This document shows, one piece after another, positions 15,567 through 18,090 of a DNA stretch of 34,222 nt. The number at the start of each line of letters is the position of its first letter. The first letter of the stretch is position 1. A model generated the notes under the pieces. That model saw only the letters and a list, made by a program, of their open reading frames with translations, was not told the origin of the DNA and did no database searches. Origin of the DNA: a bacterium (GTDB taxonomy: Bacteria; Bdellovibrionota_C; UBA2361; RFPC01); assembly GCA_022763385.1 (NCBI GenBank), contig JALEGQ010000046.1:1-34222 (forward strand), given 5' to 3'. A program made the position numbers and the translations under genes.

Positions 15567-15590
15567 CTCCCATTTGGTCTCCCATTTGGT
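15567..15590. repeat. Tandem 12-bp duplication at the left end of the RAYT unit
   Basis: CTCCCATTTGGT occurs twice head to tail, immediately after the stop of the preceding gene and immediately before the left REP-like motif. Its last bases (ATTTGGTACC) resemble the ATTGGTACC seen beside the right-hand motif on the other strand. Confidence 0.8.
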
Positions 15591-15599
15591 ACCCGGCAC
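15589..15599 (-). repeat. REP-like motif, left copy
   Basis: GTACCCGGCAC is the exact reverse complement of the two right-hand copies. It lies about 250 bp before the RAYT start. Confidence 0.65.
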
Positions 15600-15607
15600 C
15601 CGGCCGT

Positions 15608-15622
15608 TGGTACCAGGTACCA
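15608..15622. repeat. Palindrome with two GGTACC sites
   Basis: TGGTACC-A-GGTACCA is a perfect inverted repeat with 7-bp arms around one base, just right of the left REP-like motif. It shares the GGTACC core with that motif and may be part of the same element. Confidence 0.6.
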
Positions 15623-15752
15623 TCCGAGTGACCGAAAAAGTCCTGCCTCCCTAAACTTTTTCTCAAGTATTACCAGCAACTTAGGAATTCTTCTCAAAAA
15701 AACTCGCAGAATGACGAACGGATCATCCTGTTTTTTCCGATTAAGAAGGGAG

Positions 15753-15767
15753 CCCGAAATTTTCGGG
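15753..15767. repeat. Small hairpin upstream of the RAYT gene
   Basis: CCCGAA and TTCGGG form a 6-bp stem with an ATT loop, 85 bp before the RAYT start. The remainder of 15563-15851 contains no credible gene. Confidence 0.5.
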
Positions 15768-15851
15768 TAATGGATGAAAGGACGATGTCTCTCTTCTGCC
15801 GGTGCGGGGATGCAGAGCTCGCCTAAATGAAAGAAGTAAGGAAGAAGTACC

Positions 15852-16844
15852 ATGCCACGAAGAAGACGCTGTATTGAAAAGGATCAGACCTATGAAATCT
15901 GCTTTCGAGCTAAGAGCACGCTGCCCTTTGTCGCCTACCGGGTGATAGACCTCATCATTAACCACGCCCTCGCGAGAAGCCAACGAGATGAGAAGCTCTA
16001 CCTCTGCCACGACATCTGGAATGGCAGTCACAGCCACCTCATGGTCCGGACCAAGGATGGATACCAGTGTGTAAAATTCTGCATGGAGGTGAAGAAGAAG
16101 ATCACAGACTGCTTAAAACAGCTGCTGGGCCTTGAGGAACTCTCGATCTGGGAGGAGCGACCGATGATAGCGCTCGTAAAAGATCTCGAGAAGGCAAAGG
16201 AACGCATAGTATACCTATACGCCAATCCAGCCCAAGACAACCTGGTGGAGCGGATAGAGGACTTCCCAGGGCTCTCAAGCTACCGAGAGTTTCAAAAGGT
16301 GTTAGAGGAGGAATCGCTTGAGGCCACGACGATCCAGACGGTGCCGCGGCTAAGGCTGTCAAAATTTACCCGGGCAAAGAGTCGTACCCTCACTCCCGAG
16401 CAGGACTCAGCGTTAGTGGATGGATTATGGGAGCAAAATGAGGAGCGCCAGGAGCTCATACGGCACCCGAATATGTGGATGAAGGCATATGGGATAACCG
16501 ATGGGCCAAGAGTGGCAGAGATCAACCAAGAAGTGATGGAGCAGCTGAGGAAGCGAGAAGCGGAGGTAGCCGAACAACGTCAGGCGCAGAAGCGTCAGGT
16601 AATGGGGGCCAAGAAGCTACGGAAGGAACCGATCCTGAAGAAGCACAAGCCGAAGAAGAAAGAGCGAAAGATCTTCTACTTGGGGTCGTGCAATAAGGAG
16701 AGGATGAAGTATTTAGCAGCGTATGACTGGTTCTGTAAGCGGTGCCGTGAGTGCTACGAACGGTGGCTGAAGGGGGACTTCACAGTGGAGTGGCCAGAAG
16801 GAGCCTTTAGACCATCGCTTCCCCCTCCGGAATGCTGCACTTAG
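15852..16844 (+). CDS. REP-associated tyrosine transposase (RAYT), Y1/HUH type
   Basis: The 330-residue product looks like a Y1-family single-strand DNA nuclease of the RAYT group. The N-terminal TYEICFRAK segment is followed by the HUH pair as HSH at 60-62 (GSHSHLMVR). YLYANP at 121-126 and NLVERIEDFPGLSSY at 130-144 match the Y-I-x-x-NP and W/LSSY blocks of RAYTs; the catalytic Tyr is probably in the first block. The C-terminal half is unusually long and Lys-rich (about 250-285), then Cys-rich (CKRCREC near 300). AAGGAAG lies upstream of the ATG. Such proteins nick REP palindromes. The frame is intact, so the enzyme may be active. Confidence 0.85.
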   Translation: MPRRRRCIEKDQTYEICFRAKSTLPFVAYRVIDLIINHALARSQRDEKLYLCHDIWNGSHSHLMVRTKDGYQCVKFCMEVKKKITDCLKQLLGLEELSIWEERPMIALVKDLEKAKERIVYLYANPAQDNLVERIEDFPGLSSYREFQKVLEEESLEATTIQTVPRLRLSKFTRAKSRTLTPEQDSALVDGLWEQNEERQELIRHPNMWMKAYGITDGPRVAEINQEVMEQLRKREAEVAEQRQAQKRQVMGAKKLRKEPILKKHKPKKKERKIFYLGSCNKERMKYLAAYDWFCKRCRECYERWLKGDFTVEWPEGAFRPSLPPPECCT

Positions 16845-16930
16845 GACGACGCTGACCCAATTTCAGCCCTTCGTCCCCAAGATATTCGAGCAAGAAGACG
16901 CCAAACCTTCCTTCCAAATCCACTTGGAAC

Positions 16931-16967
16931 CGCACCAGTGCGACTTCAACTCACCCGATGGGGTGAG
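16931..16967. repeat. Two adjacent hairpins downstream of the RAYT gene
   Basis: CGCAC-CA-GTGCG (16931-16942) and CTCACCC-GATG-GGGTGAG (16950-16967) are perfect stems of 5 and 7 bp. They lie in the noncoding right flank of the transposase and could be REP-type substrates or the transcript end. The rest of 16845-17080 shows nothing I can call. Confidence 0.55.
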
Positions 16968-17082
16968 ATCTCGCCATCTCGCCCCTAAATTTCTCAGCAT
17001 CCTCACCATTTTCGCATCTCGCACACCTTTCGACCGCCAGAAATTCCATCTCCGTACCTCTATCACTCGATGAGTTCGATTA

Positions 17083-17116
17083 GTGCCGGGTACCAATGGC
17101 GGTTGGTGCCGGGTAC
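17083..17116 (+). repeat. REP-like motif, two direct copies at the glk 3' end
   Basis: GTGCCGGGTAC occurs at 17083-17093 and 17106-17116, 23 bp apart start to start. The first is followed by CAAT and the second by TAAT. The last base of the second copy is the final base of the glk stop codon (TAG on the minus strand at 17118-17116). Confidence 0.75.
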
Positions 17117-18090
17117 TAATTGAGGGTGGTGGCGAGGGCGGCGGTGCCGATCATTCCGGTTTCGTCGTTGAGGATTACGGTGAGGGGAGCGTCCTGGACG
17201 ATGGGACTCATTCTGCCTTGTCGGAGGTACTCTTCAACGGTCCCACCTTCTTTGAGTTTCGAGAGGATCTTGGGGGGGATTCCTCCTCCGAGATAGATTC
17301 CACCGGTGCAGAGGTTGTAGAGGACGCAGTTTCCGGCAAGACCTCCGAGTATGTTACAGAAGAGATCTATTGCTTTCTCTGCTCGCTCAGACTTTTTTGC
17401 GATTCCAAGTTCTGAGATCTGACGGGGAAGGTCATCGCCGGTAAGCTCTTCTTCGCCACGGTATTCCGGAAGAGTTCCGAGAAATTCATAGATGTTTGCC
17501 AGTCCGGGGCCACAGAGGACTCGCTCATAGCTCACTCTCCGGCCAAACTTCTTGAAAAGAAAACGGAGGAGTTCGAGGGAGAGTTCGTCTCGTGGTGCAA
17601 AATCGATATGCCCTCCTTCAGAGGAGAAAACGTGCCAGGTACCATCGATGCGGGCGGCGGAGGCGTGGCCGAGGCCGGTTCCCGGGGCAAGGATCGTGAT
17701 ACGGTCACTGCTGTGAACATCCCCGCCGGGGTGAAGTACCTCTAGGTCTGCGGCACCAAGATGGGGCAACGCCGCGGCAAGGGCATAGAGGTCGTTTACG
17801 ACTCTGCCCCGAGTGATATTCAGCCGCCTAGAGAGACTCTGCTCAGAGAAGTTCCAGGGAAGATTCGTGAGTTGTACCGATCCTCCGCGAACCGGACCGG
17901 GGACTCCAAAGCAGTAGGCCTTTACGTCTTTGGCTCCGGTCTCATGAAGAAAATACTCTACGGCATCCTCAAGAGAGGGGAAGTCTTCACTCCGATAGTG
18001 CTCTATCTTCTCAACACAGAGAAAATCATCTTTCACCGTATAGAGGCCGAGGCGGGTTGAGGTTCCACCGATATCACCAGCAAGAAACAT
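17116..18090 (-). CDS. glk: Glucokinase
   Basis: This enzyme phosphorylates glucose to glucose-6-phosphate with ATP in the cytoplasm. The 324-residue length matches E. coli Glk (321). Family motifs are the N-terminal phosphate loop GDIGGTSTR (5-13), the GVPGPV block, LTNLPW, the APGTGLG loop near 137, the sugar-binding EGGHIDFAP near 160, and GGIYLGGGIPPK near 265. AAGGAAG lies 6 nt before the ATG at 18090. It is the last gene of the holin-like/rsgA/ung/glk run, 19 nt after ung. Its stop codon lies in a REP-like repeat. Confidence 0.95.
   Translation of the reverse strand: MFLAGDIGGTSTRLGLYTVKDDFLCVEKIEHYRSEDFPSLEDAVEYFLHETGAKDVKAYCFGVPGPVRGGSVQLTNLPWNFSEQSLSRRLNITRGRVVNDLYALAAALPHLGAADLEVLHPGGDVHSSDRITILAPGTGLGHASAARIDGTWHVFSSEGGHIDFAPRDELSLELLRFLFKKFGRRVSYERVLCGPGLANIYEFLGTLPEYRGEEELTGDDLPRQISELGIAKKSERAEKAIDLFCNILGGLAGNCVLYNLCTGGIYLGGGIPPKILSKLKEGGTVEEYLRQGRMSPIVQDAPLTVILNDETGMIGTAALATTLN

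Follow-up and report, generated by a model that had tools for sequence, protein, structure and literature searches.

The window, a stretch of 34,222 nucleotides, is contig C190 of a 3.07-Mb assembly (228 contigs, 86.5% complete) that was taken as a metagenome-assembled genome (MAG) of Bdellovibrionota, relatives of predatory bacteria. It contains a long RAYT transposase gene that is flanked by convergent genes, namely one unassigned ORF and a glucokinase gene. The features of the locus are listed in Table 1. An Rfam search of the RAYT element gave no match.

Table 1. Features of the RAYT locus, in window coordinates.
Feature	Position	Strand	Remarks
Tandem 12-bp repeat CTCCCATTTGGT, two copies	15567-15590	+	Left border; copy 2 runs into left end palindrome 1
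Left doublet hairpin	15587-15622	-	Single-strand fold, -11.9 kcal/mol, z -3.3
Left end palindrome 1, GGTACCCGGCACC (reverse complement GGTGCCGGGTACC)	15588-15600	-	
Left end palindrome 2, GGTACCAGGTACC	15609-15621	undefined	21 bp past left end palindrome 1
Weak promoter-like box AAAACTCGCAGAATGACGAACGGATCA (AACT-N15-GGA)	15699-15725	+	Box score 18/22
Short leader hairpin CCCGAAA/TTTTCGGG	15753-15767	+	Conserved with the C164 paralogue (alignment, direct reading)
Long RAYT ORF	15852-16844	+	330 aa, intact; HUH H60/H62, W100, Tyr121, N125-P126 core; C-terminal domain ~145-330
3' non-coding stretch, RAYT stop to right end	16845-17081	+	
Right doublet hairpin	17079-17120	+	Single-strand fold, -12.8 kcal/mol, z -5.0
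Right end palindrome 1, AGTGCCGGGTACC	17082-17094	+	
Right end palindrome 2, GGTGCCGGGTACT	17105-17117	+	
Glucokinase gene	17116-18090	-	Convergent to RAYT; stop codon overlapped by right end palindrome 2

The first-pass annotation of this DNA had described an intact, unusually long RAYT of 330 residues. The reading frame is indeed intact, with its HUH and tyrosine residues in place, while its length is ordinary for its kind, given that the long-RAYT family of Bdellovibrionota (42 relatives) spans 312–352 aa. The closest named relatives of the protein come from Bdellovibrionales and Oligoflexia MAGs, and a search for relatives on plasmids or phages found none. Residues 1–144 of the family profile match the TnpAREP structure 4ER8 with an E-value of 5 × 10−11, compared with 0.014 for IS200/IS605 transposases; with its HUH and YxxxNP motifs and its greater proximity to TnpAREP than to IS200 TnpA, the protein belongs among the RAYTs. 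Across the 42 relatives, H60, H62, W100 and Y121 do not vary, the most frequent residues of the tyrosine motif include Y123 and A124, and the residue between the two histidines is variable (V, P, S, A, I and F, among others), the window copy having S. The Y1_Tnp model scores in 26 of the 42 relatives, and NCBIfam REP_Tyr_transpos matches the window RAYT under its cut-off (27.7 vs 80). Residues 145–330 have no convincing cover in Pfam and no assignment in PHROGs, and this part contains R284, P315 and P321, also invariant across the 42 relatives. Judged by sequence comparison, the conserved C-terminal domain of long RAYTs is new to Pfam. The AlphaFold model of the protein is poor (mean pLDDT, 51) and unsuited to a fold search. 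Contig C117 (L132) of the same genome encodes a distant long RAYT-like protein of 320 aa with inverted ends GTGTC[CA]GACACC, and GTGTCTGACACC also borders the doublet on C175.

The 11-mer GTGCCGGGTAC is found at positions 15589-15599 (-), 17083-17093 (+) and 17106-17116 (+). If one mismatch is allowed, the window contains five matches where 0.22 would be expected, and none of the shuffles reached five. These three positions agree with the one left and two right inverted copies reported earlier, but the 11-mer forms the core of a longer unit, the 13-bp imperfect palindrome GGTACCCGGCACC of the class GGTRC-NNN-GYACC, and a second left copy had been missed. With this copy, GGTACCAGGTACC, placed 21 bp beyond the first, both ends of the element are doublets, and the RAYT is bounded by inverted doublets of the 13-bp palindrome, which bears out the REPtron-like layout that had been proposed. 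As single-stranded DNA, each doublet folds into one hairpin, while lone 13-mers fold weakly and GGTACCCGGCACC by itself gives no fold. The palindromes at the element ends (GGTRCNNNGYACC) have no separate GTAG/GGAG foot, in keeping with the view that the motif is not of the GTAG/GGAG type.

The end palindromes vary with the RAYTs that they enclose. A significant inverted end motif (p < 0.05) was detected in 23 of the 42 RAYTs tested, nearly half having none, and a few of the 23 motifs are non-palindromic and may be due to chance. On the RAYT tree, related RAYTs have a common end palindrome, the motif labels having been read by eye from the flanks. The groups are those of GGTACCCGGCACC, GGTGCGTCCCACC (the ends of the own-genome paralogues C31 and C75), GGAACAYCCTACT (three relatives) and TGTAGC.GGGCTAC (several others), and another clade has the ends GGTAC.GGGTACC or a near form. 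Where a right motif was recognised, it is located in most members ~180–260 nt past the RAYT stop codon. In addition, a 3' box, GTGTATCTAC/GATCTATCTAC, lies 20–75 nt past the RAYT stop in about 15 relatives (e.g., L103, L107 and L121), and in two members (L116 and L117) this word sits in the 5' leader instead; GTGTATCT occurs in 9 of 44 members, the null maximum being 4. Co-evolution of the RAYT clades with their own palindromes forms part of what we consider to be the best explanation of the locus.

The genome-wide search proposed by the first-pass annotation gave a divided answer. The exact 11-mer occurs seven times in the genome and every copy sits at RAYT-element ends (three in the window, two at the ends of the C164 paralogue, and the last two at the contig ends of C68 and C192, both of which correspond to the left end of the C164 element); this word is thus ruled out as a dispersed REP. 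The palindrome class, on the other hand, is dispersed, paired and intergenic: GGTRCNNNGYACC has 47 sites in the own genome (G000) against 5 for the reversed control. The dispersed sites are thus sisters of the window palindrome; the main solo form among them, GGTGCCACGCACC, is present in 20 exact copies, nearly all of them intergenic. In a hand-assembled, non-exhaustive list of 62 sites that includes the RAYT ends, 41 have a neighbour within 60 bp, compared with 0.17 expected by chance, and the most frequent gap between paired sites is exactly 21 bp (12 of 22). The arrays combine GGTAC-NNN-GTACC with GGTGCCACGCACC, and their spacer AACCGAGAGG resembles the left end of C164. The palindrome class GGTRC-NNN-GYACC is a true REP-like family.

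We give hardly any credence to a reading in which the palindromes serve as ordinary regulatory or terminator sites and flank the gene by chance. Their intergenic position and capacity to form hairpins would fit it, yet the palindrome sequence tracks the RAYT clade, the inverted arrangement is carried at both ends in many relatives, and the enrichment of GGTRCNNNGYACC is absent in G002 (1 site vs 5 in the control) and G004 (5 vs 7), the same-genus and same-family genomes without a RAYT hit.

Several smaller repeats were noted in the own genome. Contigs C43 and C207 have in common a ~200-nt repeat with a GGTGCCACGCACC doublet at its border, which may be the right end of a RAYT missing from the assembly. 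A ~60-bp stretch starting with TTGGTACCAGGTACCATCAGATTCCGAGTG is present in two copies on contig C127 (L009 and L010), one of them followed by inverted GGTATCGGGCACC, and is a candidate short non-autonomous element. Two identical stretches ~1 kb apart on C47 (L152 and L153), each with GGTGCGTGGCACT after a stop codon, are a recent tandem duplication.

Related or nearly identical members of the family are found in different surroundings. In the own genome, unlike upstream sequences on C68 and C192 run into the same RAYT left end, which shares 97 nt with C164, and the contigs of the pairs C76/C80 and C97/C199 also differ in upstream sequence, with the same RAYT left end within each pair. The same left end, starting near AATCTGGTAGATGGTAAC, was read in eight differing flanks in G011, where further box copies are listed, and G003 has four RAYT paralogues in different places, 77–83% identical in DNA; the copy counts were inferred from contig ends of fragmented MAGs and not from reads. 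Since several RAYT subfamilies occur in at least two differing flanks within one genome, the unit resembles a self-mobile element and not an immobile single-copy REPtron. The long-RAYT units thus look, from their sequences, like an insertion sequence or a TIRtron rather than a static REPtron; the REPtron reading of the first-pass annotation holds for the layout and the dispersed relatives.

A classical REPtron would consist of a domesticated, immobile RAYT acting in trans on dispersed REPs, the extra copies being old duplications. The dispersed paired palindromes, matched in sequence to the RAYT, would suit it, and the literature describes tnpAREP/RAYT as the first prokaryotic transposase to have been domesticated, as a gene mostly present once per genome and as one for which evidence of mobility is absent (PMC8266576). 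We regard it as unlikely on account of the several own-genome RAYT subfamilies that have two left ends in different flanks, the at least eight left ends in differing flanks in G011 and the dispersed, diverged paralogues of G003. Judged by contig ends, the family does not consist of single-copy, immobile RAYTs, although the window copy itself is single.

Slightly less probable again is an artefact of assembly or strain mixture, in which one element would acquire two left contexts from rearranged strains or chimeric contigs. The stretch that C68 and C192 have in common with C164 is exactly 97 nt, like a k-mer overlap, and C164 is unbroken at its right end. Against this, the contigs of the pairs C97/C199 and C76/C80 also show single-base differences ahead of the end that they share and therefore represent different copies, the left ends of G011 differ at many positions, and even strain variation would place the element at different sites.

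Taken together, we consider it about 75% probable that the locus represents a complete TnpAREP/RAYT-type single-strand transposon of ~1.54 kb, which belongs to a long-RAYT family of Bdellovibrionota, has doublet-hairpin ends and mobilises solo doublets. By analogy with TnpAREP and IS200/IS605, a RAYT dimer would most likely recognise the terminal hairpins in single-stranded DNA with strand specificity, Tyr121 would nick the DNA at the element ends, and the cut ends would be joined, so that the excised unit could be inserted elsewhere (peel-and-paste). The scattered 13-bp doublets would be non-autonomous relatives whose movement depends on the same RAYT or on its sisters. The window copy might be active at present; as it occurs once and its nearest paralogue, C164, is 79% identical in protein, it may instead be an old or resting insertion.

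A promoter-like box precedes most RAYT genes of the family. AACT-N15-CGA is found at exact spacing upstream of RAYT in 26 of 44 members (null, 0.4), and AAC-N16-CGA in 33 of 44. The box of the window is within its own shuffle range and not significant alone, and the sequence at the box is 74% identical to the C164 paralogue, compared with 52–57% on either side. Genome-wide counts of a wider box pattern, relative to the control, were 84/7 in G011, 45/13 in G014, 39/7 in G018 and 17/2 in the own genome, an excess to which copied transposase left ends contribute. The box resembles, in both its spacing and its sequence, what we take to be alternative-sigma promoters, FliA and ECF types having been considered.

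According to Pfam matches in G011, G014 and G018, the box lies upstream of genes for ComEC-type competence, FliH/HrpE, SLT, Gp49, BrnT and ORF6N proteins, as well as DprA, a sigma-70 factor, a phage-integrase-type recombinase, GIY-YIG, UPF0102 and helix-hairpin-helix proteins, a pilin and a T2SSE ATPase. In the same genomes, it also precedes a ComF-like gene (double zinc ribbon and phosphoribosyltransferase domain) and a T3SS rod gene whose Pfam match is below the cut-off. Further Y1 transposases carry it as well, and genes downstream of other boxes presumably encode RecA (L306, box 161 nt upstream) and TadE-like and CpaE-like proteins, names that we read from the sequence. As the inspected boxes were hand-picked from search lists, without a formal test of competence-gene enrichment, and some are intragenic by chance, the link to competence is a lead. 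It is conceivable, if somewhat short of probable, that the long RAYTs of Bdellovibrionota belong to a putative alternative-sigma regulon together with competence (comEC, comF, dprA, helix-hairpin-helix, pilus), integron-like integrase, GIY-YIG nuclease, toxin–antitoxin and type III secretion genes. If the shared box were confirmed, single-strand transposition would be linked to DNA uptake and, were the regulon real, timed to the entry of single-stranded DNA into the cell. A repeated stretch with the box GAAACTTTTCAGAATTTTTGTCGATA is present in many copies on G014 contigs (e.g., L249, L252 and L312); no ORF was found downstream of the box at most of the G014 copies checked, and the stretch may be a small non-autonomous element that contains a promoter.

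A literature search for six of the palindromes returned unrelated papers only. Among known systems, RAYT/TnpAREP proteins and REPtrons, including E. coli TnpAREP, for which subclasses 2.1–2.8 have been defined (Quentin et al. 2018, PMC6006769), share with the long RAYT the HUH and YxxxNP core, an SS motif after the core, inverted repeats flanking the gene, and relatives that are dispersed and paired in intergenic DNA. In contrast to REPtrons, the long RAYT has a ~180-aa extra C-terminal domain without a Pfam match, the 13-bp palindromes at its ends lack a GT[AG]G foot, and several copies of it with differing flanks are found per genome. Subclass 2.3 (median 325 aa, Chromatiales/Alteromonadales) is similar in length, raised copy number and extra C-terminal domain; nevertheless, the long RAYT does not belong to it, as its alignment to 4ER8 shows no trace of the 55-aa core insertion which, with the motifs NHYH and YVDLNP, marks the subclass, and as it carries Y[LI]YANP instead of YVDLNP and has flanking palindromes.

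TIRtrons (Di Nocera 2013, PMC3733652; approximately subclass 2.1) also combine a RAYT-like gene with inverted end repeats and some dispersed dimers, but the long-RAYT ends lack GGGGWSAS and are short palindromes, not long TIRs, and the protein has ~330 aa in comparison with ~230 aa in TIRYT. The own genome contains a TIRYT-like gene as well (C111, L130; 224 aa), which is preceded by a box of the same kind and has the long inverted repeats AATTCGTCCCCGGGATGACTATCCCATTTTT; C111-like sequences adjoin GGTGCCACGCACC sites on C60 and lie upstream of an XPB-like helicase gene on C52. The IS200/IS605 elements are alike in their HUH Y1 transposase, hairpin ends and multi-copy state, whereas the long RAYT has YxxxNP and not YxxxQ, possesses a long C-terminal domain and is nearer to TnpAREP. 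The element is thus a new variant on the RAYT/REPtron–TIRtron theme, real and well supported. A many-copy long-RAYT family with clade-matched palindromic ends would represent a mobile relative of TnpAREP, and such a relative would make it testable whether REPs arose from a full transposon.
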